Made by a program: the position numbers and the translations under genes
Shown: positions 1 to 11,953 of the stretch, piece by piece
Layout of the letters: the number at the start of each line of letters is the position of its first letter
Numbering within the stretch: the stretch's first letter is position 1
Notes under the pieces: generated by a model
Database searches by the model: none
The model's input: the letters and a program-made list of their open reading frames with translations, nothing else
What the model was told of the DNA's origin: nothing
Assembly (NCBI GenBank): GCA_024640385.1
Contig: JAHEFC010000086.1
Location: 1 to 11,953, forward strand
Source: Sphingobacteriales bacterium
GTDB taxonomy: Bacteria; Bacteroidota; Bacteroidia; Chitinophagales; Chitinophagaceae
Direction: 5' to 3'
Length of the DNA: 11,953 nucleotides

Positions 1-1
1 A

Positions 2-454
2 TGGAAGATCAATATCTGGGCGAGATTGTTTCAGCCTGATAAGGCCTACAATGAGATCAGAACATCACTCAGAGCTGCAAAACCCGGCGGCCAAAGCGAA
101 TCAGACGGAGGGATCAACAAGAACCTGTTCAGCTCATACCCGCCATTCCAGATAGATGCCAATTTCGGTTATACGTCTGGGATAGCAGAGCTGCTGCTGC
201 AGAGCCATACCGGTATCATCCATTTTTTACCAGCACTTCCTAAGAACTGGCCATCAGGAGAAGTCCGAGGATTAAAAGCACGGGGAGATCTGGAAATTGA
301 TATGGAATGGAAGGGAAATAAGCTGCAATCGGTGTCGGTGATCCCTGCCCTTTCTGGCACGTACAGGTTTCGTTATGCTGCGATCGAAAAGAGCATAGCG
401 CTAACTGGGGGAAAGAAATATCGTTTTGATGCTAAACTTGATCTCATAGAATAA
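2..454 (+). CDS. GH95 alpha-L-fucosidase, C-terminal part (5' end outside window)
   Basis: The reading frame is open from base 2 and encodes the last 150 residues of a glycoside hydrolase family 95 protein, which removes alpha-L-fucosyl (in some members alpha-L-galactosyl) residues from glycans. The fragment starts WKINIWARLF, matching the conserved Trp-Lys-x-Asn-x-Trp-Ala-Arg stretch of the (alpha/alpha)6 barrel. It continues with the family motif YPPFQIDANFG, in which the Asp codon is at 155-157; this segment lines the active site, and I believe it supplies the aspartate that helps activate the nucleophilic water. SGIAELLLQSH and LPALPKNWPSGEVRGLKARG are also typical, as is the beta-rich C-terminal domain that ends the protein. 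The catalytic acid lies upstream, outside the window. An internal ATG at 26 is not the true start because the homology continues upstream of it. A terminator follows the stop codon. Family assignment is firm; the exact substrate is not known. Confidence 0.93.
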   Translation, partial: WKINIWARLFQPDKAYNEIRTSLRAAKPGGQSESDGGINKNLFSSYPPFQIDANFGYTSGIAELLLQSHTGIIHFLPALPKNWPSGEVRGLKARGDLEIDMEWKGNKLQSVSVIPALSGTYRFRYAAIEKSIALTGGKKYRFDAKLDLIE

Positions 455-485
455 AAAAGGTAGACATACAGTTTCAGTTAGAGTC

Positions 486-519
486 ATGGGGCCGTTTACC
501 AGCGGTCCCATTTTATTTG
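486..519 (+). terminator. Rho-independent terminator after the GH95 gene
   Basis: A 9-bp stem with one G-T wobble is formed by ATGGGGCCG (486-494) and CGGTCCCAT (503-511) around an 8-nt loop. It is followed directly by TTTTATTTG. It lies 32 bp after the fucosidase stop codon and ahead of the esterase gene, so it probably ends the fucosidase transcript and leaves the esterase with its own promoter in 520-583. I could not identify a convincing promoter there. Confidence 0.75.
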
Positions 520-583
520 TAATAAGGCTATATTTATCTTAGGAACATATTCATTAGTTTATACCTCATTTAAAACAGCTGAC

Positions 584-1879
584 ATGATTTGCAGAAGATC
601 ATTCCTCACCCTCCTGTTATTCGTTTCTATCGGTATCAGTTTTGCCCAGCCAGTACACCAACAGGTGGAGATCGTGGTCACTCCGGATCATTTAAACTGG
701 GAGTACAAGATCGGCGAACCGGCAACTTTCACTATACAGGTATTCAATTTCAACGTACCGATGAAAGATGCCAAGATCGTTTACCAGATAGGCCCTGAAA
801 GAATGAAACCCATCAGATTGGACAGTGCAGTTCTCAAGGATGGCAAATTTGTTACGGGAGCAGTATCCCTGAAGGAACCTGGATTTCTGCGCTGTGTGGT
901 CACAACAAGTTTTGAAGGGAAACAATACCGAAACCTGGCTACTGCAGGCTATGAACCAGGCAGGATACAGCCAACGGTATCCATGCCTTCGGATTTTGAT
1001 GCATTCTGGAAAGGCGCAGCAGATGAGCTGGCCAAACTTCCCATTGATGCAAAAATGACCCTGATGCCCGAGCGGTCCTCCGCCATAACTGATGTTTACC
1101 ATGTCAATTTCCAGGGATATGCTGCGTCAAGAATTTATGGGATCCTATGTGTACCAAAAAAGCCCGGGAGATATCCGGCAGTGCTGCAGGTACCGGGTGC
1201 AGGCATACGTCCTTATGGTCCGGACCTGGAGATCGCCGACAAGGAGATCATTGTTCTTACCATCGGCATTCATGGCATACCCGTAAATCTTGATCCTGCA
1301 GTATACAACAATCTCTCTTCCGGCGCATTAGCCGGATATTTTTACTACAACATGAATGACCGCGACAGGTATTATTACAAACGGGTGTATACCAATTGCA
1401 TCAGGGCAGTTGACATGATATTCAGCCTGCCGGAATTTGACGGGCAAACTCTTGCAGTAATGGGTGGCAGCCAGGGAGGTGCGCTCAGTATCATAACTGC
1501 TTCACTCGATAAGAGAGTGAAATATATGGCGGCACAATATCCCGCTCTTTGCGACCTGACAGGATACACAAAAGGAAGAGCCGGTGGCTGGCCTCATATG
1601 TTGAGTGAAGCAAACAAACAATGGAATTCAGATGAAAAGATCATCAATACCCTTGCTTATTATGATGTGGTGAATTTTGCAAAAGGCGTCAAAGCAGAAT
1701 CTCATTTCAGTTGGGGGTTCAATGATGAAACCTGCCCGCCTACTTCATTTTATGCTGCCTACAATTCCATGACTGCGCCCAAAAAAGCAGATATATTTTT
1801 GGATACCGGACACTGGCTATATCCCGAACAAAGAGCAGCGATCAATAAATGGGTGATCACAAAACTGAAAAATTTGTAA
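584..1879 (+). CDS. Secreted acetyl xylan esterase / CE7-like alpha/beta hydrolase
   Basis: A 431-residue exported esterase of the acetyl xylan esterase/cephalosporin-C deacetylase type (carbohydrate esterase family 7, AXE1 fold), expected to remove acetyl groups from sugars or glycans. Residues 1-21 form a signal peptide: a basic MICRR start, a hydrophobic core and a likely cleavage site in SFAQP. Residues about 24-125 look like an Ig-like beta domain, which explains why the protein is about 100 residues longer than classic CE7 enzymes. The catalytic domain covers about 130-428. The nucleophile elbow is GGSQGG with Ser296; Asp381 in FNDETCPP and His410 in DTGHW complete the triad, all in the expected order and context. 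The upstream neighbour is a fucosidase, consistent with side-group removal from a plant or algal glycan. The start at 584 is preferred because it yields a complete signal peptide. The enzyme class is clear; the natural substrate is not. Confidence 0.9.
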   Translation: MICRRSFLTLLLFVSIGISFAQPVHQQVEIVVTPDHLNWEYKIGEPATFTIQVFNFNVPMKDAKIVYQIGPERMKPIRLDSAVLKDGKFVTGAVSLKEPGFLRCVVTTSFEGKQYRNLATAGYEPGRIQPTVSMPSDFDAFWKGAADELAKLPIDAKMTLMPERSSAITDVYHVNFQGYAASRIYGILCVPKKPGRYPAVLQVPGAGIRPYGPDLEIADKEIIVLTIGIHGIPVNLDPAVYNNLSSGALAGYFYYNMNDRDRYYYKRVYTNCIRAVDMIFSLPEFDGQTLAVMGGSQGGALSIITASLDKRVKYMAAQYPALCDLTGYTKGRAGGWPHMLSEANKQWNSDEKIINTLAYYDVVNFAKGVKAESHFSWGFNDETCPPTSFYAAYNSMTAPKKADIFLDTGHWLYPEQRAAINKWVITKLKNL

Positions 1880-1989
1880 ACAGGCAGGTAGATCGCACGG
1901 GCGTCTTTCAGTGCTGGTATTTGGCAAAGAGATCGGTAAGCACGTACGGGACCTGAAGTTGCAGCAATAATTCAGTTGTGATATCATGA

Positions 1990-2859
1990 TCAAATGCTCA
2001 TGAACTCTTTCTTATACTGCGTAGGTTTCTTCCGCATCAGTGCCAGGAACTGCCGGTTAAAATTAGAGACCGTATTGAAACCGCATTCATAACAGATCTG
2101 TTCCACGGATAGCTCAGTTTCCGTCAACAGTTTGCAGGCATGCCTTATCCTTAATTCGGAAACGAATTTGGAGAAAGGCATGTTGTTTTTCCTGGAGAAA
2201 TACCGGCTGAAAGACGTGGGAGTCATGTGCAGAAGTTTCGACAACTCTTCCAATTGTATCTTCTGCCGGAAATGCTTCATCACATATGCATAAACGATGT
2301 TCAGCCGGTCCGTCTCGCTCTGATTGAACTCGTTCTCGTATGCTTTGGACGAGAGGAAATGATAACTTTTCGAATGCGCCAGTAATTCCAGGATGTTCAA
2401 CAGCTGGATAACACTTTGTGTTCCGTGCATACCAGTCAGCTCTTTCATCATACTGATCAAATGTTGCTTCTCCTTCCCATAAAATTCAAGTCCCCGTGTA
2501 GATCTTGTAAATAATTTCCTGAGCAATACGGTTTCTTCTTTCTCTAAAAAATGTTCTCCAAGAAAATTCTCATTGAAGTAGATCACGACCCCTTCAGTGT
2601 TAAGCCTGCTACCCCTTTCAAAATAAACATCATCCGATCTCCAGAGATGAGGCAGATGCGGGCCGGTCATGATCAGTTCACCAGGGCCAAAAGCTTTGAT
2701 ACTGTCTCCGATGAATCTTGTGCCGGTCCCTTTCAATACAACAAACAACTGATACTCGGAATGGGCATGCCACTGCGGATCAAAGTATTTCTCCTCCAGG
2801 TGACGAACTACAAATATCCGGTCCTGAGGTATCTCAGATTTATGTATAGCCGCTTTCAA
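1990..2859 (-). CDS. AraC family transcriptional regulator with N-terminal cupin
   Basis: A 289-residue cytoplasmic regulator. Residues about 15-95 form a cupin-like sensor barrel, including PQWHAHSEYQLFVVLKG and a PHLPHLWRS segment typical of AraC-type sugar sensors. Residues about 196-287 form the AraC/XylS DNA-binding domain with two helix-turn-helix motifs: the first in LEELSKLLHMTPTSFSRYF, the second in VEQICYECGFNTVSNFNRQF, followed by KKPTQYKKEF, the usual family ending. It is transcribed away from the large dehydrogenase-fusion operon, sharing a 138-bp intergenic region with a pair of direct repeats. It is therefore the natural candidate for controlling that operon and perhaps itself. 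The ligand is unknown; a sugar or keto-sugar handled by the operon is a reasonable inference. Confidence 0.9.
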   Translation of the reverse strand: MKAAIHKSEIPQDRIFVVRHLEEKYFDPQWHAHSEYQLFVVLKGTGTRFIGDSIKAFGPGELIMTGPHLPHLWRSDDVYFERGSRLNTEGVVIYFNENFLGEHFLEKEETVLLRKLFTRSTRGLEFYGKEKQHLISMMKELTGMHGTQSVIQLLNILELLAHSKSYHFLSSKAYENEFNQSETDRLNIVYAYVMKHFRQKIQLEELSKLLHMTPTSFSRYFSRKNNMPFSKFVSELRIRHACKLLTETELSVEQICYECGFNTVSNFNRQFLALMRKKPTQYKKEFMSI

Positions 2860-2997
2860 GTATGATTAAATTATCCTTTGGATTAGCCTAAATACAGTCA
2901 GCAGGACAAAATACAGTAAGAATTGGATAAAATCCGCCAAGGGTTCTAAGATTATTTTCAGGAGATTTAGTGTGACCATAACCAACAACCGACTGCT
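2860..2997. promoter_or_regulatory. Divergent promoter region between regulator and operon
   Basis: This 138-bp AT-rich spacer separates the start of the minus-strand AraC-type gene from the start of the plus-strand operon, so both promoters should lie here. I could not assign convincing Bacteroidota promoter boxes (-7 TAnnTTTG with an upstream TTTG). The left half holds two near-identical direct repeats, listed separately. Confidence 0.55.
2890..2920. promoter_or_regulatory. Candidate AraC-type operator: two direct repeats, 19-bp period
   Basis: AAATACAGTCAG (2890-2901) and AAATACAGTAAG (2909-2920) agree at 11 of 12 bases and are spaced 19 bp start to start. AraC-family dimers typically bind two directly repeated half-sites on one face of the helix about two turns apart, so the spacing is close to expectation. 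The site sits about 30 bp from the regulator start and about 80 bp before the operon start. Function is inferred from position and architecture only. Confidence 0.45.
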
Positions 2998-5900
2998 ATG
3001 TACCAGAGATCCCTCATCCTGTTTTGCTTTTCGCTGTTCATATCCCTGTTCATGGGAGCTTCGGCCCGCAGGTATAAAGAAACTCCGCGCAGGCTGGAGA
3101 TCCTGTTCCTCGGCCATAATAGCAAGCATCATGATTCTGATAAACTCGCTTCCATTTTGGAAAAAGAGTATTTCAAGGCTGGAGTGAACATCTCTTACAG
3201 TACTGATCCCGGTATATTGAATGAAGAGCAGCTCAAGCAATACGACGGTCTTGTCCTGTATGCAAACTATGATTCCATCAGCGCCAGCCAGGAAAAAGCG
3301 TTGCTGGATTTTGTAAGAGGTGGTAAAGGATTCATTCCTCTTCACTGTGCGTCCTGGTGCTTTCGCAATTCTCCGGAAGTGGTGGAAATGATCGGGGGAC
3401 AATTTTCAACCCATCAATACGATTCTTTTAAAGCAGTGATCACAGAGCCCGGGCATCCGGTGATGCAGGGCATCCCTGCATTTACCACAAAAGATGAAAC
3501 CTATGTACATGATAAACTGAGTAAAGAGATCAAGGTACTTTCTGTGAGGATGGAAGGAGACCGGAAAGAACCCTATACCTGGGTGCGGGATTATGGCAAA
3601 GGGCGGGTATTTTACACGGCCTATGGGCACGATGAAAATACATTCTTGAATCAGGGCTTCCTGGACCTGGTGAAGAATGGAATACTCTGGGCAGTAGGTG
3701 ATGAGGCAAGGAACGCATTGGCCGCATATAAGATCGCTGAACCAAAATATTTTGATGGCCCGGTTCCCAACTATGAAAAAAGGGATCCTGCACCTAAGGT
3801 CCAGGAATCGCTTACACCAGAGCAATCTATGTCGCTTATGCAGGTACCGGTTGGTTTTGAATTGAAATTGTTTGCGGCAGAACCCGACGTAGTAAATCCG
3901 ATCTATATGAACTGGGATGAAAGGGGACGATTATGGGTAATTGAAACCGTGGACTATCCCAATGAACTGAAAGACGATGATATTGGCGACGACCGCATCA
4001 AGATCCTGGAAGATACCAATGGGGATGGCAAGGCTGATAAGTTCACCATATTTGCTGACAAGCTGAATATCCCCACCAGCTTTACATTCATTAATGGCGG
4101 CATCATGGTGAGTTGTGCGCCATCTTTCATCTTCCTGAAAGATACCAACGGAGATGACAAGGCGGATGTCAGGCAGGACCTTTTGAAAGGCTGGGGCAAA
4201 TGGGATACGCATGCACAGGCATCCAACCTCAGGTATGGTATTGATAATATGCTCTGGGGTGTAGTGGGTTATTCGGGATTCTATGGAAAAGTTGGCAACG
4301 ATTCCCTTAAGTTCTCACAGGGCGTATACCGGTTCACTGCCGATGGCAGCAAACTGGAATATCTTTCTACAACAAGCAATAACACCTGGGGGCTTGGATT
4401 TTCAGAAGAGTTTGATGTATTTATATCTACCGCAAATAATACACATACTGCCTTTTTCGGACTGCCGAAAAGATATTTCGATAAGGTTAAGCTCAATGAA
4501 ACCGGTGTAAAAAAGATCGACGCGCATTACTACATGCATGTGGCCACAAAAAATCTCCGCCAGGTGGATGTGTTTGGCGGATTCACTGCGGCAGCAGGCC
4601 ATAGCCTGTATACCGCAAGAAATTTTCCTAAAGAATACTGGAACCGCGTTGCCTTTGTTACTGAACCTACAGGGCGCCTGGTACATCGGGTTAATTTGAA
4701 ACAACAGGGTGCAGGCTTCGTAGAAGATGGTGATGGCTGGAATATGCTGGCTAGTGCCGATGAATGGGCCGGACCCATACAGGCAGAAGTAGGGCCTGAT
4801 GGTGCCTTATGGATCACGGACTGGTACGATTTCATTATCCAGCACAACCCTACTCCAAGTATTGCCAGCGCGGGTCTGCAGGCTGAAAACGGGAAAGGAA
4901 ATGCCTATATCAATCCATTAAGGGACCATGAACGGGGCAGGATCTATCGTATTACCTACAAGAACAATGATCAGAAAAACAGTCTGTCTTTAAGCAAAAA
5001 CGATACGGAGGGGCTGATCAGGGCGCTCTCTAATGAAAACTTGTTCTGGAGAACAACAGCACAGCGTTTATTGGTTGAAAATGATGACCGTTCTGTATTG
5101 CCGGCATTGTACAAGATCGTGCAGAACAGGTCTGTAGACCAAATAGGTATCAATGCGCCAGCTATTCATGCACTTTGGACCATGCATGGTTTGAAAGCTC
5201 TTGATGGAGCCAACAAGGAAGCCCTGGATGTTGCCACCATGGCCCTGGAGCATCCGGCGGCAGGTGTGAGAAAAGCGGCGATCGAAGTGCTTCCCCGGAA
5301 CAATGCAACATTCCAGGCCATGCAGAAAGCAAAAGTTTTTGAAGATAAGGACTTGAGGGTTCGTCTTGCTGCTGTACTTGCCACTACTGACATGAAGCCA
5401 TCTGATGAGATCGGAAACGTGTTATTGTCTATGGCAGAAAAACAGGAAAATGTAAATGATGAATGGCTGAAACATGCACTGACCATTGCAGGAAAATTGA
5501 ATGAAGAAACATTCAGGGCGGCATTCAGAAAAAAAGGCCTGAACGAAAATCCTGCGCTGGTTGAAGCGTCCATGGCGCAACGGCTTGCATTTGGTTCGAG
5601 GCTGAATACTATCAGTTTAAGAAGATCTTCAGGGCGGCCAGACGAAGAGCTCCTGTCTCCTGAACTGGCAAATAAAGAATTCTTGCTGTCTGGAGAAATA
5701 GACAGGCCTGCTACTGTAAGTTCCGGAATGATCGCAACACAGGGAAATGCCCGTGAGGGATATGCATTATACCTGTTGGACAACAAACTTCATTTCATCG
5801 TGAACCAGGGCGGGAAATCCGCGTCTACCACTTCACCCAAAGAATTACCTGCTAAATTCAGTTATAAGGCAGGCCTGATGAAAGATGGCACTGCCAAACT

Positions 5901-6498
5901 CTTTGTGGACAATAAGGAAGTTGCCAGTACAAGAACATCTGGCCTTTTCAAAAAAGAATTGGATCTGGGATTAAGAGTGGGTCTGGATAACCGAAAAGGT
6001 ACAGATAGACTTGGTAATTATCCCGATTCAGTATTTGTGCTGAGGACCGGCATAAACAATAACAAGCTCGAAACACTGGAAGCACAGAAATCAGCAACGC
6101 CTCCTCCAACCGGCAAGGTGGACAAGGTGATCGTACTTAAAGTGGTTAAAGATGTGATGAAATACGACAAGCAACTGATCACTGCAAAGGCGGGTACAAC
6201 CATCCAGATCCAGTTTGAGAACCCGGATCTCATGCAACACAATCTTTTGTTGGTCAAACCCGGCACGCTGGACAAAGTGGGCGCTGCAGCGGACAAACTC
6301 GCGCAGGATCCTAATGGAGTTAAAATGAACTATGTGCCCAAGATGCCTGAAATATTAAAAGCAACACCGTTACTCAATCCCGGAGGGAAATACACGCTTA
6401 CGATCAAACTTCCGGATGTTCCCGGTGACTATCCTTACCTGTGTACATTTCCCGGGCATTGGAGGATCATGAACGGAATCTTAAGGGTGACCAAATAA
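2998..6498 (+). CDS. Exported ThuA - membrane-bound-dehydrogenase - HEAT - LamG-like - cupredoxin fusion protein
   Basis: A 1166-residue protein with a signal peptide (residues 1-23, ending MGASA), so the rest acts in the periplasm or outside. Residues about 31-235 are a ThuA-like domain with the characteristic HCASWCF motif (His116-Phe122). Residues about 272-655 are the beta-propeller of PVC-type membrane-bound dehydrogenases, related to glucose/sorbosone dehydrogenases, with FELKLFAAEP near its start and two calcium-type loops, DTNGDGKAD (339-347) and DTNGDDKAD (382-390). Residues about 665-870 look like HEAT repeats, and about 885-1015 resemble a LamG/concanavalin-like domain. Residues about 1040-1166 are a cupredoxin with all type-1 copper ligands in azurin spacing: His1081 (QHN), Cys1149, His1154, Met1158. 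Relatives often carry a haem c domain, but no CxxCH occurs here. Likely role: oxidation of a sugar or glycoside with electrons passed to copper; substrate and cofactor are unproven. First gene of the operon, 17 bp before the transporter. Confidence 0.88.
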   Translation: MYQRSLILFCFSLFISLFMGASARRYKETPRRLEILFLGHNSKHHDSDKLASILEKEYFKAGVNISYSTDPGILNEEQLKQYDGLVLYANYDSISASQEKALLDFVRGGKGFIPLHCASWCFRNSPEVVEMIGGQFSTHQYDSFKAVITEPGHPVMQGIPAFTTKDETYVHDKLSKEIKVLSVRMEGDRKEPYTWVRDYGKGRVFYTAYGHDENTFLNQGFLDLVKNGILWAVGDEARNALAAYKIAEPKYFDGPVPNYEKRDPAPKVQESLTPEQSMSLMQVPVGFELKLFAAEPDVVNPIYMNWDERGRLWVIETVDYPNELKDDDIGDDRIKILEDTNGDGKADKFTIFADKLNIPTSFTFINGGIMVSCAPSFIFLKDTNGDDKADVRQDLLKGWGKWDTHAQASNLRYGIDNMLWGVVGYSGFYGKVGNDSLKFSQGVYRFTADGSKLEYLSTTSNNTWGLGFSEEFDVFISTANNTHTAFFGLPKRYFDKVKLNETGVKKIDAHYYMHVATKNLRQVDVFGGFTAAAGHSLYTARNFPKEYWNRVAFVTEPTGRLVHRVNLKQQGAGFVEDGDGWNMLASADEWAGPIQAEVGPDGALWITDWYDFIIQHNPTPSIASAGLQAENGKGNAYINPLRDHERGRIYRITYKNNDQKNSLSLSKNDTEGLIRALSNENLFWRTTAQRLLVENDDRSVLPALYKIVQNRSVDQIGINAPAIHALWTMHGLKALDGANKEALDVATMALEHPAAGVRKAAIEVLPRNNATFQAMQKAKVFEDKDLRVRLAAVLATTDMKPSDEIGNVLLSMAEKQENVNDEWLKHALTIAGKLNEETFRAAFRKKGLNENPALVEASMAQRLAFGSRLNTISLRRSSGRPDEELLSPELANKEFLLSGEIDRPATVSSGMIATQGNAREGYALYLLDNKLHFIVNQGGKSASTTSPKELPAKFSYKAGLMKDGTAKLFVDNKEVASTRTSGLFKKELDLGLRVGLDNRKGTDRLGNYPDSVFVLRTGINNNKLETLEAQKSATPPPTGKVDKVIVLKVVKDVMKYDKQLITAKAGTTIQIQFENPDLMQHNLLLVKPGTLDKVGAAADKLAQDPNGVKMNYVPKMPEILKATPLLNPGGKYTLTIKLPDVPGDYPYLCTFPGHWRIMNGILRVTK

Positions 6499-6515
6499 AC
6501 TGATAAACATATCGC

Positions 6516-8045
6516 ATGCCATATAACCAAACACAAGAACAAACTGACAAACCCGATATGAAGTTATTCTATGCCTGCTTTGTGGCATTGGTAACTACTT
6601 CGTTTGGTTTTATTTTAAGGGCCATCATACTTCCGCAATGGGGCCGGGAATTCAATCTTACCCAAACACAATTAGGTGAAATAGCTGGCGTTGGACTCTG
6701 GCCATTTGCGATCAGCATCGTATTGTTCAGCCTGGTGATTGATAAGATCGGCTATAAAACGGCGATGGTTTTTGCTTTTTTATGCCACATCACTTCCGCC
6801 GCCCTTACAATTTTCGCTACAGGATATTGGATGCTTTACCTGGGAACTTTTATTGTGGCATTAGGGAATGGTACCGTTGAAGCGGTAGTAAATCCCGTTG
6901 TAGCCACTATGTTCCCGAAGGAAAAAACAAAATGGCTGAACATCCTGCATGCAGGTTGGCCCGGAGGCCTGGTATTGGGCGGGATCATTGCCCTATTGAT
7001 GGGCGAAGAAACCAGCTGGAAGTTCAAGATCGCTCTGATCCTCCTGCCTACACTGGCTTATGGGATGATGATGTTCTTCCGGAAATTCCCGGTCAATGAA
7101 AGGGTCAAGGCAGGGGTTTCGTATAAAGAAATGTTGCAGGAAGTTGGGGCCATAGGAGCATTGATCATTGTTTCCCTGATCATCTTTCAGCTGGGGGCAG
7201 TATTCAGCTGGTCAACCAGTTTTAATGTTATTCTGATACTGGTGATCACGGCCTGGTTTGGATGGTACACCAAAAGCCTGGGGCAACCGCTCTTCATTAT
7301 TCTCTTACTCATCATGATACCGCTGGCTACCACAGAATTAGGAACAGACAGCAGGATCACAGACCTGATGACGCCTGCCATGAGCAAACTCGGCATGCAG
7401 GCGGGTTGGGTATTGGTGTATACTTCTGCCATCATGTTTGTGCTTCGGTTCTTTGCCGGCCCTATTATTCACAAAGTTTCTCCGCTGGGGCTACTGGCCA
7501 TCTGTTCATCCATTGCTGCTGCAGGGCTCTATATGTTGTCGATGTCCAATGGCACCATGATCCTGGTGGCAGCAACCGTGTATGGTCTTGGTAAAACCTT
7601 TTTCTGGCCCACCATGCTGGGTGTGGTGGCAGAGAGATTTCCCAGGGGTGGTGCACTTACTTTAAATATCACGGGCGGGCTTGGCATGATCGCAGCAGGT
7701 GTGATAGGTGCCGGGATATTGGGATTTATCCAGGATAAATCTGTGGATGCAAATATCCTCGCCTATGACCAGGCAAATAATACCAGCATACACAGTTCTT
7801 ATGTCACCATCAATAAAACCAGTGTATTCGGGGATTATAGTGCGCTTGACCAGGACAAACTTGCCTCTGCATCCGAAGCGGAAAAGTCCACTGTATCGGC
7901 TATTAGGGATGACGCTAAAAAAGATGCGCTTAGGGAGATCGTTATCTTTCCCGTCATCATGCTGGTCAGTTACCTGCTGTTGATATTCTATTTCAGAAGC
8001 AAGGGTGGATATAAAGCCGTGGAATTAAAAAATGATCTGCTATGA
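6516..8045 (+). CDS. MFS transporter, probable sugar or sugar-derivative permease
   Basis: A 509-residue inner-membrane protein of the major facilitator superfamily with about 12 hydrophobic segments. The first begins near KLFYACFVALVTTSFG (residues 15-30). The loop after the second segment carries DKIGYKTAM, a version of MFS motif A. Before the last membrane segment there is an unusually long polar stretch at about residues 405-474, from QDKSVDANIL to DAKKDALREI, with an acidic and basic, helix-prone second half. The gene starts 17 bp after the large exported protein and its stop overlaps the next start by 4 bp (ATGA), so translation is probably coupled to the epimerase gene. Context suggests it imports the product of the exported dehydrogenase or a related mono- or disaccharide. 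Membership of the superfamily is firm; the substrate is an inference. Confidence 0.88.
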   Translation: MPYNQTQEQTDKPDMKLFYACFVALVTTSFGFILRAIILPQWGREFNLTQTQLGEIAGVGLWPFAISIVLFSLVIDKIGYKTAMVFAFLCHITSAALTIFATGYWMLYLGTFIVALGNGTVEAVVNPVVATMFPKEKTKWLNILHAGWPGGLVLGGIIALLMGEETSWKFKIALILLPTLAYGMMMFFRKFPVNERVKAGVSYKEMLQEVGAIGALIIVSLIIFQLGAVFSWSTSFNVILILVITAWFGWYTKSLGQPLFIILLLIMIPLATTELGTDSRITDLMTPAMSKLGMQAGWVLVYTSAIMFVLRFFAGPIIHKVSPLGLLAICSSIAAAGLYMLSMSNGTMILVAATVYGLGKTFFWPTMLGVVAERFPRGGALTLNITGGLGMIAAGVIGAGILGFIQDKSVDANILAYDQANNTSIHSSYVTINKTSVFGDYSALDQDKLASASEAEKSTVSAIRDDAKKDALREIVIFPVIMLVSYLLLIFYFRSKGGYKAVELKNDLL

Positions 8046-8902
8046 ACCTGCAGGTAAAATTTGGCGCAAGCACCTGGCTGTGGACATCACCGTTCAATAC
8101 AGATTCAATTGAAGATATTTTTTCGAACATATCATCCATTGGTTTTGATGTGGTAGAGATCGCTGTGGAAGATCCTTCCATCATAGATGTGAAACGTGTT
8201 GCTGCCGGTCTTGCCAGGTATAAACTGGACGTGGTGATCTGTGGGGCATTTGGACCCTCACGGGATCTTACCCATGAAGATGAATCGGTACACCAAAACT
8301 GCTTTAACTACATAGAACAGTGTTTTGAAATCTGCAATGCCCTGGGGGCGGGATTCCTCGCTGGTCCCATGTATTCTGCGGTAGGCAAAGCAAGGATGGT
8401 CCCTGCAGAACAGAGAAAAAAAGAGTGGGCACTTGCAGTGAAAAATATCCGTAAGGTTTGTGAAATGGCGTCTGCAAAAGGATTGATGATAGGTCTTGAA
8501 CCGCTGAACAGGTTTGAATCCGATCTTGTAAATAATATTGACGATGTATTGAGATTGATCAATGAAGTGGATCATCCGGCGGCTGGTATTGTACTCGATG
8601 GTTTTCATATGAACATTGAAGAAAGGGATATTGTGCAGGCCATTACAAAAGCCGGTGACAAGCTGATCCATATGCAGGTATCTGAGAATTATCGCGGTAC
8701 TCCCGGTACCGGTCAAACGAGATGGGAAGATTACCGGAAGGGATTGGAACTGATCGATTACAAGGGAGTTGTTTCAATCGAGAGTTTCACTCCGGAAAAC
8801 CAGGAGCTTGCCGGTGCAGTATGTTTCTGGCATCCCATGGCTGAAAGCCAGGACGGTTTTGCCAGAGAAGGATTGAAGTTCCTGAAAAAATGGGCTGAAT
8901 AA
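8042..8902 (+). CDS. Sugar phosphate isomerase/epimerase family TIM barrel (D-tagatose 3-epimerase-like)
   Basis: A 286-residue cytoplasmic TIM-barrel enzyme of the xylose-isomerase-like/AP endonuclease 2 superfamily, closest in pattern to D-tagatose/D-psicose 3-epimerases, which act on ketoses through a divalent metal. Ligand positions line up with that family at an offset of one: Glu153 (GLEPLNRFE), Asp186 (LDGFHMN) and Glu247 (SIESF). The nearby ENYRG arginine (Arg218) and His189 also match substrate-binding positions. The fourth ligand, normally the second His of an HxH motif, is Gln212 in HMQVSEN. Gln at this position is used by hydroxypyruvate isomerases, so the enzyme may still bind metal. 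No signal peptide. It overlaps the MFS stop by 4 bp and precedes the oxidoreductase by 18 bp. Likely job: isomerising, epimerising or cleaving an imported keto-sugar; the precise reaction is unknown. Confidence 0.87.
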   Translation: MNLQVKFGASTWLWTSPFNTDSIEDIFSNISSIGFDVVEIAVEDPSIIDVKRVAAGLARYKLDVVICGAFGPSRDLTHEDESVHQNCFNYIEQCFEICNALGAGFLAGPMYSAVGKARMVPAEQRKKEWALAVKNIRKVCEMASAKGLMIGLEPLNRFESDLVNNIDDVLRLINEVDHPAAGIVLDGFHMNIEERDIVQAITKAGDKLIHMQVSENYRGTPGTGQTRWEDYRKGLELIDYKGVVSIESFTPENQELAGAVCFWHPMAESQDGFAREGLKFLKKWAE

Positions 8903-8920
8903 ATTTTTAAATCTATCATC

Positions 8921-10048
8921 ATGGGAAATAAGATCAATGTCGCCATTGTTGGTTTGGGTTTTGGTGCAGAATTCATACCTATATACCAACGACACCCCAA
9001 TGCAAACATGTATGCCATCTGCCAGCGCAATAAGGAAAAGCTTGACCAGATAGGCGATGAATTCAGTATAGAAAAAAGATATACTGACTACGATGAGTTA
9101 CTTAAAGATCCTGCGATCGATGCAGTTCATATCAATACTCCCATACCGGACCATGCCGTTCAATCCATCAAAGCGCTGAAAGCAGGGAAACATGTGGCCT
9201 GCACTGTTCCAATGGCTACCAACGTGGACGAATGCAGGCAGATCGTTGAATTGGTGAACCAGACAGGGCTTACTTACATGATGATGGAAACCGTTGTATA
9301 TGCCAGAGAGTTCTTATTCATGAAAGAGCTTTATGAGAAAGGAGAACTGGGCAAGGTTCAGTTCCTGAAGGCCAGTCACCAACAGGATATGGATGGATGG
9401 CCGAATTACTGGCCCGGCCTCCCTCCTATGCACTATGCCACCCATTGCGTAGGTCCTGTACTGGGACTGACAAAAGATGAGGCGGAATATGTTTCCTGCT
9501 TTGGCTCTGGAACAATCAGGGAAGAATTGATCCCGCATTACAATTCCCCATTTGCTGTTGAGAGCACCCATATTAAATTCCGGAATTCTGACCTGAGTGC
9601 ATATGTATTTCGTTCTTTGTTTGATACTGCCCGTCAGTACCGCGAGAGCTTTGAAGTATACGGATCAAAAAAATCTGTAGAGTGGCCATTGATCGAAGGC
9701 CAGCCACTGGTGGTGCATACTGCCAAGAAACCAGAGCCTGAAATTCCAGAAGAAGTTCATTCCCCTGATTATGCGCATTTGTTACCTGAGCCAATTCAGC
9801 GGTTCACCACCAAAGGCGTATACGATACAGATGAACACCAGCACCTTTCATTCATACAGGGCGCTGGCCATGGCGGATCTCACCCTCACCTGGTCCATGA
9901 ATTTCTTTCTTCACTGGTAGAAAAAAGAGAACCATTCCCAAATGCCCGACAGTCGGCAAATATCACTTGCGTAGGGATTCTTGCTCACGAGTCGGCCATG
10001 CAGGGCGGGAAGATCATTGCCTTGCCGCAGTTTACGTTGAGTCATTAA
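8921..10048 (+). CDS. Gfo/Idh/MocA family NAD(P)-dependent oxidoreductase
   Basis: A 375-residue cytoplasmic sugar oxidoreductase. The N-terminal Rossmann fold begins with VAIVGLGFGAEFIP (dinucleotide-binding GxGxG-like loop, residues 8-21) and continues through INTPIPDHAVQSIKALKAGKHV. The C-terminal Gfo/Idh/MocA alpha/beta domain starts around residue 125 and contains MHYATHCVGP with His171 and His175, where catalytic histidines of this family usually lie. The usual EKP motif, whose lysine contacts cofactor and substrate in most members, reads TVP here (Thr95-Val96-Pro97). ThuB, which forms 3-keto-trehalose, belongs to the same superfamily, and a ThuA domain is encoded in the same operon. 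Last gene of the operon; its TAA stop lies inside the left arm of a long palindrome. Superfamily is firm; substrate and direction are not known. Confidence 0.9.
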   Translation: MGNKINVAIVGLGFGAEFIPIYQRHPNANMYAICQRNKEKLDQIGDEFSIEKRYTDYDELLKDPAIDAVHINTPIPDHAVQSIKALKAGKHVACTVPMATNVDECRQIVELVNQTGLTYMMMETVVYAREFLFMKELYEKGELGKVQFLKASHQQDMDGWPNYWPGLPPMHYATHCVGPVLGLTKDEAEYVSCFGSGTIREELIPHYNSPFAVESTHIKFRNSDLSAYVFRSLFDTARQYRESFEVYGSKKSVEWPLIEGQPLVVHTAKKPEPEIPEEVHSPDYAHLLPEPIQRFTTKGVYDTDEHQHLSFIQGAGHGGSHPHLVHEFLSSLVEKREPFPNARQSANITCVGILAHESAMQGGKIIALPQFTLSH

Positions 10049-10122
10049 CTTTTGTACCTCCAAGGTCCCTACCTCCAAGGTCGGGACCTTGGAGGTAGGG
10101 ACCTTGGAGGTACAAAAGTTAA
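10045..10122. repeat. 38-bp perfect inverted repeat with 2-nt loop, built from four 12-bp units
   Basis: Left arm 10045-10082 and right arm 10085-10122 are exact reverse complements, separated only by GG. Each arm starts or ends with TTAA and contains ACCTCCAAGGTC twice at a 15-bp period (10056-10067 and 10071-10082), mirrored in the right arm (10085-10096 and 10100-10111). The TAA stop of the oxidoreductase gene is part of the left arm. The transcript would form a very stable hairpin that could end transcription or protect the 3' end. The duplicated internal structure also resembles a REP-like or miniature palindromic element. It does not encode a protein. Confidence 0.9.
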
Positions 10123-10286
10123 AGCGAATCAGCAGCAATAACCAAAGCATAAATTCCGGGGAAAGAGATAGGAATTCAAATGCTTATATTTTAATTTAGG
10201 CTATCCCCGTAGCAGAGCTGCACTCCTTAATGAAAATTACTAGCCGTTCCTGATATCTTTTTTTGATAACCATTAAAACAAATGCC
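10123..10286 (+). promoter_or_regulatory. Leader region of the cupin gene, promoter presumed
   Basis: This 164-bp AT-rich stretch follows the palindrome and precedes the cupin start. If the palindrome terminates the operon transcript, a promoter for the cupin gene must lie here. A T-rich tract (10257-10264) sits just upstream of the gene, but no clear promoter boxes, riboswitch or RNA gene could be recognised. Confidence 0.3.
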
Positions 10287-10664
10287 ATGAAGATCAAAAA
10301 AGAAGACATCCCCGTCATGATGGAATCTCCCGGAACGATCATGAGAAACCTTCCAGGATATGGCGGAATGACCGTTGCATTTAACGAAGTACCTGCCGGT
10401 ACGGATTTTCGCCCATTCTTACAAGGCCTGAAAAATAACAGCTGCCAGTGTCCACATTGGGGATACGTGGTTGAAGGAGAGATCCTGATGACTTATGATG
10501 ATGGATCATCCGAGAAGCTTACAAAAGGAGATGTTTTCTACATGCCACCGGGGCATGTAGGCGTTGTTGCAAAAGACTTGAAGATGATCGACTTCAGCCC
10601 TTCACAGGAATTTCATGAAGTCATGGATCATATCTCGAATAAAATAGCAGAATTAAGTCAGTAA
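10287..10664 (+). CDS. Small single-domain cupin protein
   Basis: A 125-residue cytoplasmic protein of the cupin fold, consisting of one conserved beta-barrel domain. Motif 1 is represented by CQCPHWGYVVEGE (Cys53, Cys55, His57, Glu63/Glu65) and motif 2 by YMPPGHVG with His90, after LTKGDVF. The putative metal site would use His57, a glutamate and His90, fewer histidines than classical cupins. The ATG at 10287 is chosen over a TTG 24 bp upstream because it gives a normal family start (MKIKKEDIP) and ATG is the commoner start codon. It stands alone between two palindromic repeats and is convergent with the TSUP permease gene. It could be an auxiliary sugar-binding or isomerising protein for the preceding operon, but no specific function is supported. 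Confidence 0.82.
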   Translation: MKIKKEDIPVMMESPGTIMRNLPGYGGMTVAFNEVPAGTDFRPFLQGLKNNSCQCPHWGYVVEGEILMTYDDGSSEKLTKGDVFYMPPGHVGVVAKDLKMIDFSPSQEFHEVMDHISNKIAELSQ

Positions 10665-10671
10665 CGCCATT

Positions 10672-10750
10672 TTTAAACAGGTTGCGGGTTGCAGGTTGCG
10701 GGCATTAGGTTTTCTGCAACCTGCAACCTGTTACCTGCAACCTGCTTAAA
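10672..10750. repeat. Inverted array of 7-bp GCAACCT / AGGTTGC units
   Basis: The left side has AGGTTGC, GGGTTGC and AGGTTGC in tandem (10679-10699). The right side has GCAACCT, GCAACCT, GTTACCT and GCAACCT in tandem (10716-10743), the reverse complement of the left unit. TTTAAA-like flanks (10672-10677 and 10745-10749) extend the symmetry, and a 16-bp centre (10700-10715) separates the halves. The arms hold three and four units, so the structure is slightly unequal. It fills the space between the convergent cupin and permease genes and could act as a bidirectional terminator. Confidence 0.85.
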
Positions 10751-10754
10751 GGGC

Positions 10755-11510
10755 TTATCGTTTAAACAACATAAATACCGACCCAATCAGGGTCATCAAT
10801 AACACCAGTTTCCGGTATTGTCCTTCCTGGATTTTCTTAACCGCCAGGATCCCAAGCCAGAAGCCCAGCGCCAGTGCAGGGATCAGGAACAGGTCGGTTT
10901 TGAAGGTGTTGAGATCGATGTTCTTCCAGTAAAAGATCTGGAATGGCATTTTAAACAGATTGATGACTAAAAAAATCCAGGCGGTAGTGCCTATAAAATC
11001 ATTTTTTGGCAGCCTCATGGCGAGAAAATAGAGATTGGCAAATGCACCGGCGAGATTGCCGATCATGGTGGTAAAGCCTGCTGCCAAGCCGGTTCCAGCA
11101 GCAAACAGTTTATTGCCAGGAACAAATATCATGGATTTGAACTCCATCCACAGTACAATACCCACCGTAACAAATATGGTGAATACCATGATCTGGCGGA
11201 ACAACACTTCGTTCATATCTTTTCCGAAATAAACACCCAGGAGTATCCCGATCCCCATCCAGGGGATCAGCTTCCAGAAATGTTTCCACTGTGCGTGACG
11301 GTTGTAATAAGACACTGCAGCAATATCAGCCATTGACAAAAGAGGGAGTACAATTCCGGTAGACAGTTTCCCTCCAAACACGATGGCCATAATGATGATC
11401 GCCAGCATATCCACCCCTTTCAGTCCTGCTTTTCCCATGCCAATGAAAAAAGCGGCCAGGGCGATCATTGCCCACTGGGAAAATGAAAAGACTGCCAGGG
11501 TTTCCATCAT
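10755..11510 (-). CDS. TSUP family (TauE/SafE-like) membrane permease
   Basis: A 251-residue integral inner-membrane protein of the TSUP family (sulfite exporter TauE/SafE, DUF81-like), whose members move small sulfur- or carbon-containing anions. About eight hydrophobic segments are visible. The first one carries the family motif FFIGMGKAGLKG, and the repeat half shows AAGFTTMIGNLAGAFANLYFLAMRLPK, matching the second-half signature in which a short Gly/Asn/Ala-rich loop precedes the membrane helix. I start the gene at the ATG at 11510 (MMETLAVFSF). An in-frame ATG 63 bp further upstream would add a polar 21-residue extension that coincides with a terminator-like hairpin. The gene lies downstream of the TrpB-like gene on the same strand but is probably separately transcribed. 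The substrate cannot be told from sequence. Confidence 0.87.
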   Translation of the reverse strand: MMETLAVFSFSQWAMIALAAFFIGMGKAGLKGVDMLAIIIMAIVFGGKLSTGIVLPLLSMADIAAVSYYNRHAQWKHFWKLIPWMGIGILLGVYFGKDMNEVLFRQIMVFTIFVTVGIVLWMEFKSMIFVPGNKLFAAGTGLAAGFTTMIGNLAGAFANLYFLAMRLPKNDFIGTTAWIFLVINLFKMPFQIFYWKNIDLNTFKTDLFLIPALALGFWLGILAVKKIQEGQYRKLVLLMTLIGSVFMLFKR

Positions 11511-11525
11511 GATCACTAAATATAA

Positions 11526-11556
11526 AGAGGAGGCCTCAATATATGAGACCTCCTCT
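11526..11556 (-). terminator. Terminator hairpin after the TrpB-like gene
   Basis: The 13-nt arms 11526-11538 (AGAGGAGGCCTCA) and 11544-11556 (TGAGACCTCCTCT) pair with a single non-Watson-Crick position around a 5-nt ATATA loop. On the minus strand the hairpin is followed by a T-rich TTTATATTTAG stretch. It lies between the TrpB-like stop and the preferred permease start, so it most likely ends the TrpB-like transcript. Confidence 0.65.
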
Positions 11557-11626
11557 ATAAATTTTCTACGCATCTAACTCACTTATCTATTGCACTACCC
11601 GGCTAACATATTAACCGGTTAACACA

Positions 11627-11953
11627 CTAGATCAATGGGGTATCCAGTTCCGCGAGCGATTCATTGATCTGCTCCTGGGTCACTTCATAGTTGATGAGTT
11701 TACCGGACAGATACTGCTCATAAGAACTCAGGTCAAAATGCCCATGACCACAGAGATTGAACAGGATGGTTTTGGAAACGCCCTCTTCATCTGCCTGCTT
11801 TGCCTGCCTGATCACTTCCGCGATACCGTGATTTGCTTCAGGTGCTGGAATAACGCCTTCCGTTCTGGAAAACAGAACACCGGCTTCAAAGCATTCTATT
11901 TGGTTGATCGCATCTGCTTCTATCAAACCATCTTTCAACAATTGGCTGATGAT
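11627..11953 (-). CDS. TrpB2-type tryptophan synthase beta-like PLP enzyme, C-terminal part
   Basis: The minus-strand frame is open to the end of the window and encodes the last 108 residues of a pyridoxal-phosphate enzyme of the TrpB2 type. Tryptophan synthase beta subunits join indole and serine into tryptophan; TrpB2 forms often act without the usual TrpA partner. Recognisable elements are an EGVIPAPEANHGIAEVIRQA segment, in which the EG-x-x-PA-x-E motif is the beta-subunit substrate-binding stretch, and ILFNLCGHGHFDLSSY. The latter is the TrpB2 form of the C-terminal region, where ordinary TrpB has an SGRGDKD-type motif. The PLP-binding lysine lies upstream, outside the window. The frame continues upstream of the first in-frame TTG, so that TTG is not a real start. 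No other trp genes are visible here. Confidence 0.88.
   Translation of the reverse strand: MISQLLKDGLIEADAINQIECFEAGVLFSRTEGVIPAPEANHGIAEVIRQAKQADEEGVSKTILFNLCGHGHFDLSSYEQYLSGKLINYEVTQEQINESLAELDTPLI

Follow-up and report, generated by a model that had tools for sequence, protein, structure and literature searches.

A putative ThuA–DUF7133 oxidoreductase of Bacteroidota that ends in a type-1 copper domain

Can a type-1 copper domain stand in for haem c on an exported sugar oxidase? The question is raised by a single reading frame of 1166 residues in a stretch of 11,953 nucleotides from a Sphingobacteriales bacterium (GenBank assembly GCA_024640385.1, contig JAHEFC010000086.1, positions 1 to 11,953; hereafter the window). 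The original prediction, made from the letters and their translations, described the frame as a ThuA–dehydrogenase fusion with copper in the place of haem c, and as a self-contained enzyme. We conclude that the protein is probably an exported ThuA–DUF7133 oxidoreductase, whose propeller oxidises a carbohydrate and sends the electrons out through the tethered copper domain, leaving a keto-sugar to neighbouring enzymes. The redox activity, the export, the direction of electron flow, the substrate and the cofactor we infer; the architecture and the copper site can be read directly, and we begin with them.

Domain architecture and copper site

The fusion and its parts, all on the forward strand, are as follows.

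2998..6498, forward: ThuA, DUF7133 propeller, helical repeat, LamG-like and cupredoxin fusion; 1166 residues, intact frame
2998..3078, forward: probable signal peptide, residues 1-27 (GASA-RR); hydrophobic segment at about 5-22 by eye, AlphaFold2 (AF2) helix 2-22
3109..3693, forward: ThuA domain, residues 38-232; PF06283, E 1e-38; structures 4jqs, 4e5v, 1t0b
3817..4962, forward: beta-propeller, DUF7133/TIGR02604, residues 274-655; Pfam E 2e-118
5005..5601, forward: HEAT-like helical repeats, residues ~670-868; AF2 helices, HEAT_2 in relatives
5677..6078, forward: LamG/concanavalin-like beta-sandwich, residues ~894-1027; PF13385 below cut-off, laminin module 1qu0
6124..6495, forward: C-terminal type-1 copper domain (cupredoxin), residues ~1043-1166; PF00127, auracyanins at TMt 0.80-0.86
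6238..6240, forward: copper ligand His1081; alignment, solved cupredoxins, residue check
6442..6471, forward: copper ligand loop with Cys1149, His1154 and Met1158; alignment, solved cupredoxins, residue check

The predicted order of ThuA, propeller and cupredoxin was borne out by Pfam and NCBIfam matches above their cut-offs (ThuA PF06283, 134.2 versus 33.4 bits; DUF7133 PF23500, 396.4 versus 27 bits; TIGR02604, 249.4 versus 122.2 bits; Copper-bind PF00127 over residues 1047-1164, E 5e-9, 36.9 versus 21.2 bits), and by structure prediction. The AF2 model, built from 56 sequences (mean predicted local distance difference test, pLDDT, 88.3; predicted template modelling score, pTM, 0.78), runs from an alpha/beta ThuA domain through the propeller and the helical repeats to a beta-sandwich and, behind a short low-confidence linker (residues 1032-1038), the cupredoxin. 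Foldseek matched these parts to ThuA proteins, soluble glucose dehydrogenase, laminin G modules and auracyanins. The HEAT-like part has its helices in the model and HEAT_2 in 14 of 27 Bacteroidota relatives surveyed below, but no HEAT family matched the window protein itself in Pfam at 0.001 or lower. The LamG-like part, similarly, has the beta-sandwich fold and the laminin match, while Laminin_G_3 (residues 910-999) scored 21.5 bits, below its cut-off of 27.6; this part is missing from one group of relatives (for example L051, L064 and L035). The proposed signal peptide fits the hydrophobic segment followed by GASA-RR, as judged by eye. Over the full length, the closest relatives are 89% and 83% identical to the window protein.

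We checked the copper site residue by residue. As predicted, the only cysteines are 10, 117, 121, 373 and 1149, there is no CxxCH motif, and positions 1081, 1149, 1154 and 1158 are His, Cys, His and Met. The prediction depended on domain searches finding an intact cupredoxin, and these gave Copper-bind above cut-off with all four ligands present. The nearest solved cupredoxins are auracyanins (6kol, 2aan, 1ov8/1qhq), with azurins ranking behind; the azurin equivalog TIGR02695 scored 31.2 bits, under its cut-off of 105.1. Auracyanins A and B of Chloroflexus and the Roseiflexus auracyanin share the fold and the four ligands with the window domain at 31-33% identity. Auracyanins in the PDB, however, are small stand-alone proteins, whereas the window cupredoxin is a domain of an enzyme fusion.

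The C-x4-H-x3-M loop without CxxCH was found in 182 of 191 aligned sequences (120 proteins, the window's included, and 71 locus frames, three proteins being in both sets), which argues that the copper site is not a chance resemblance. The other nine are four truncated records (P0080, L020, L039, L048), four sequences that stop short of the domain (three of them in L053, the fourth in L054) and a single CxxCH sequence (L066, Limisphaerales). Relatives' loci were collected with six peptide patterns in genome contigs; as one of the patterns (KDVMKYDK) comes from the copper domain, the locus scan is biased towards copper relatives.

One more small cupredoxin is encoded in the same genome (contig C23, 5956-6195; a 137-residue frame with a lipoprotein-like start, L134), and has low similarity to the fused domain. 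The PF00127 search that gave it missed the window's own cupredoxin, and the count is thus a lower bound.

Copper and haem tails on a common core

Related proteins were expected to end in haem c. We surveyed Bacteroidota and Verrucomicrobiota genomes with the whole protein as query (E 1e-100), and classed the tails by motif (CxxCH for haem; for copper C-x4-H-x3-M in the main Bacteroidota classing and x3 to x4 elsewhere). The 247 Bacteroidota genomes gave 27 strong hits in 21 genomes, the window's own included, of which 26 are copper-linked and one (L119) carries haem. The copper-linked proteins comprise 15 with a C-terminal fused domain, 7 with ThuA behind the cupredoxin and 4 with a separate cupredoxin gene. 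Pfam found ThuA and DUF7133 in all 27, Copper-bind in 17 (the motif is in 22) and cytochrome c in one. From 194 Verrucomicrobiota genomes we obtained 8 hits in 7 genomes; CxxCH together with Pfam cytochrome c was present in 7 of the 8 and ThuA in 4, and a Pfam copper domain in none, the eighth hit (L137) being cut off by its contig. In the Pfam scan hit L135 was represented by L066, the two being one protein. A single copper-motif match in L142, at residue 604, lies inside the propeller at a place with no Pfam cupredoxin, and we take it as chance.

The expectation of a haem tail therefore describes Verrucomicrobiota (7 of 8) and fails in the sampled Bacteroidota, where the copper tail is the usual form of the ThuA–DUF7133 protein. 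The idea that the window protein is a lone or misread exception to a haem rule can be rejected, as 26 of 27 Bacteroidota hits are copper-linked. That copper takes the position of the haem c of relatives (7 of 8 versus 1 of 27 with cytochrome c) is well supported by comparison.

The position of the copper domain varies. In L123-L127, L132 and L133 the cupredoxin precedes a C-terminal ThuA; a longer copy of L123 (L149, 4480-7872) has, by Pfam, DUF7133 at 64-449, Copper-bind at 792-910 and ThuA at 947-1128. The four tail-less Bacteroidota hits (L118, L122, L129, L130) are each accompanied by a stand-alone cupredoxin gene, co-oriented and downstream; it is the next gene in three cases and lies about 1.2 kb away for L129, as the longer stretch L143 shows. 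Four of these stand-alone cupredoxins share 60-66% identity with the fused copper domain of L131. In L053, from Sphingobacteriaceae (949-11938), a single separate cupredoxin gene, whose start looks lipoprotein-like by eye, comes after three tandem copper-less ThuA–DUF7133 genes.

We built a tree of the propeller-plus-repeat regions from 104 of 119 rows (4 truncated and 11 distant rows were dropped). The tree is a quick one, made without bootstrap, and its several long branches make individual placements, for instance that of L066, uncertain. The permuted proteins fall into a single group (support 100). The haem protein L119, whose tail is Pfam Cytochrom_C as read from L144, a longer copy, forms a group of four with L120, L121 and L128 (support 100). 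These three are copper proteins, and L119 shares 69-72% identity with them over propeller and repeats. Label changes on the tree number 6 for fused copper and 3 for haem, with L129 labelled as having no carrier despite the cupredoxin gene 1.2 kb away. Copper and haem tails thus occur on the same core, and the copper domain is naturally split off into a neighbouring gene. Since L119 carries haem among copper proteins so similar to it, copper and haem c look exchangeable as carriers on one enzyme core.

Haem-type DUF7133 proteins were also seen within about 3 kb of a copper-type gene (L015:4465-6855, L017:4325-6739 and L023:14111-17224), which places copper and haem outlets at one locus.

The propeller and its cofactor

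Two sites of the propeller bear on its chemistry.

4210..4212, forward: His405, invariant in A1, A2 and A3; candidate for the histidine of PQQ-type (pyrroloquinoline quinone) paralogues, on which hhalign and MAFFT differ
4378..4383, forward: Asn461-Asn462, where the own-genome paralogues L074, L076 and L077 have Arg-Asn and L081 has Arg-Ser; alignments

In PQQ sugar dehydrogenases a His is catalytic and an Arg(-Asn) contacts PQQ. The window propeller is six-bladed and, by structure comparison, its fold resembles these enzymes. It is linked by profile to paralogue L077 (hhalign probability 86.6, E 4.5e-6), which matches the PQQ enzyme 6jt5. It is possible, yet in our judgement somewhat unlikely, that the protein is a classical PQQ sugar dehydrogenase of the soluble glucose dehydrogenase or AA12 type, with PQQ taken from outside. 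The fold shared with soluble PQQ sugar dehydrogenases and AA12 pyranose dehydrogenases comes with only 10-17% identity, and the Arg of the paralogues is not kept. His405 takes the position of the L077 histidine in hhalign, but lies one column off in MAFFT. Searching the PDB with the propeller profile returned WD40 and aldolase matches and no PQQ enzyme, and a profile comparison with the GSDH domain of L157 (see below) gave no match. The pqqC model TIGR02111 was found in 0 of 21 genomes, although control genomes were empty as well. In Coprinopsis, a haem b domain forms part of the AA12 enzyme (PMC4332668).

Two observations count against the reading that we prefer, a copper-wired sugar oxidase. 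The replacement of the PQQ-type Arg by Asn461 speaks against sugar oxidation, and L054, from the same genome bin as L053, speaks against strict coupling, having neither a tail nor a cupredoxin within its stretch.

Gene cluster and proposed pathway

The genes around the fusion are listed below; the counts refer to a homologue anywhere in the stretch in 69 loci, short contigs being scored as misses.

1990..2859, reverse: divergent AraC-type regulator; PF12833, 20 of 69 loci
6516..8045, forward: major facilitator superfamily (MFS) transporter, probable operon partner; PF07690, 13 of 69 loci
8042..8902, forward: PF01261 xylose-isomerase-like TIM barrel, probable operon partner; Pfam, 51 of 69 loci
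8921..10048, forward: Gfo/Idh/MocA oxidoreductase, probable operon partner; Pfam, 57 of 69 loci

The cluster is conserved, and a relative in culture, Segetibacter aerophilus (L015), has it too. The Gfo/Idh/MocA homologues are at least 69% identical in 46 of the 57 loci and 45-48% identical in the other 11, and the split loci L145, L146 and L147 hold, in this order, oxidase, cupredoxin, TIM barrel and Gfo/Idh/MocA genes (by Pfam for L145, by similar starts for the other two). The permuted L149, however, adjoins PEP_hydrolase-like and UPF0261 genes (Pfam), and the neighbours of the haem-type L144 resemble those beside L149 in their starts; the cluster thus differs between branches. Being conserved, the PF01261 and Gfo/Idh/MocA neighbours argue for a multi-enzyme pathway, and the split relatives indicate that the copper domain is separable; both speak against the predicted self-contained enzyme.

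Upstream in the window are the end of a GH95 glycosidase gene (2-454) and an acetyl-xylan-esterase-like gene (584-1879), which point to carbohydrate use. Downstream are a small cupin protein (10263-10664) and, on the other strand, a TauE/SafE family membrane protein (10755-11573).

The presence of both PF01261 and Gfo/Idh/MocA partners in the conserved cluster suggests 3-keto-sugar metabolism. The levoglucosan pathway (LgdA/LgdB1/LgdC), as presented in PMC10066097, uses enzymes of these same two families via 3-keto intermediates; its first oxidation is NAD-dependent, whereas the window case would oxidise outside through the copper fusion. C-glycoside cleavage is outlined as C3 oxidation followed by cleavage in PMC12724307, and as elimination, hydration and reduction in PMC13273386. 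PMC5615132 reports planctomycete-type cytochrome c proteins of unknown function in freshwater Verrucomicrobia, some with carbohydrate-binding modules. By analogy, we infer a 3-keto-sugar route, with sugar oxidation by the window protein as a first step that would take place outside the cytoplasm.

A parallel set in the same genome (contig C118, L157:1690-9386) has Gfo/Idh/MocA, PF01261 and two PF06439 3-keto-disaccharide hydrolases, then a ThuA–GSDH–PKD–cytochrome c protein (6015-9386). This protein resembles that of the window in joining ThuA, a propeller and a carrier tail beside Gfo/Idh/MocA and PF01261 genes. It differs in its clear GSDH match, PKD domain, haem c tail and two adjoining hydrolases, and its propeller cannot be aligned by profile to the window's. 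In L050, a PF06439 protein directly follows Gfo/Idh/MocA and precedes a smaller propeller–cupredoxin fusion without ThuA (15236-17296, 687 residues). The copper domain of this smaller fusion shares 27-44% identity with those of the ThuA fusions. Homologues of the PF06439 gene and of the smaller fusion are present, on the other strand, in L037, L040 and L071, making 4 of 69 loci. No PF06439 protein was found among the nine window proteins scanned (the reading frame at 11627-11953 lies outside the scan), and the family has 9 matches elsewhere in the genome.

The substrate could instead be an alcohol or a cyclitol (inositol-like, for example) rather than a glycoside oxidised at C3, with the neighbours as cyclitol enzymes. 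In favour are model matches below the cut-offs: D-psicose 3-epimerase and 5-keto-L-gluconate epimerase for the TIM barrel, and inositol 2-dehydrogenase for the MocA protein. We consider this unlikely in view of the PF06439 protein in L050, its homologues in L037, L040 and L071, and the two in the parallel cluster.

It is more improbable still that hydrolysis or binding is the role of the propeller and of ThuA, and that the cupredoxin stores or delivers copper or merely rides along as a carrier. The propeller fold is indeed common to lactonases and DFPase too, and no reaction of ThuA or DUF7133 is described in the literature searched; however, haem c on the same core and the repeated split pairs fit an electron outlet and not copper storage, and the four-ligand type-1 copper site is that of electron carriers. 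That the union of a copper gene with a dehydrogenase gene results from an assembly or frame error in this draft genome of 585 contigs is virtually impossible, because the same fusion recurs in 182 of the 191 sequences, some of them on megabase contigs from named isolates.

For the copper-wired sugar oxidase we propose the following sequence of events. The propeller probably oxidises a carbohydrate outside the cytoplasm, and electrons would go one by one to the tethered type-1 copper domain and thence to the respiratory chain (COX1-type oxidase genes are present in the genome). In Verrucomicrobiota relatives, haem c would take over the job of copper. The oxidised product, most likely a 3-keto sugar or 3-keto glycoside, would enter the cell through the MFS protein; the PF01261 TIM barrel would then process it by elimination, hydration or epimerisation, and the Gfo/Idh/MocA enzyme would reduce the processed 3-keto sugar. 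That ThuA acts on the oxidised sugar is a guess. More tentatively, Bacteroidota may run an extracytoplasmic, copper-wired sugar catabolism, in which ThuA–propeller oxidases form 3-keto sugars outside and pass electrons to respiration through tethered or separate auracyanin-like domains. Copper and haem c would then be swappable on one core, the set of domains would be kept when their order is rearranged (copper before ThuA), and the cofactor may be other than PQQ.

We regard the window protein as a variant, and a widespread one, within a known family and not as a new kind. We found no description of this fusion in the literature searched, which left out most subscription papers and does not show its absence from print. 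The propeller scores above the cut-offs of both DUF7133 and TIGR02604, the latter named ‘PVC-type heme-binding CxxCH protein'. For a protein with a cupredoxin end and no CxxCH anywhere the name is unfit, and the same is true of near relatives, some of which bear it in databases while having no haem motif. We flag this mis-annotation here; the name comes with the propeller model. L119 and its copper counterparts L120, L121 and L128 are natural haem and copper versions of one enzyme, and can be compared directly. If our reading is true, sugar oxidases with a copper outlet built in would stand next to quinohaemoproteins as a second solution. Such outlets would be useful for work on direct electron transfer, and would bear on the use of sugars by Bacteroidota when these enzymes lack a cytochrome c domain.

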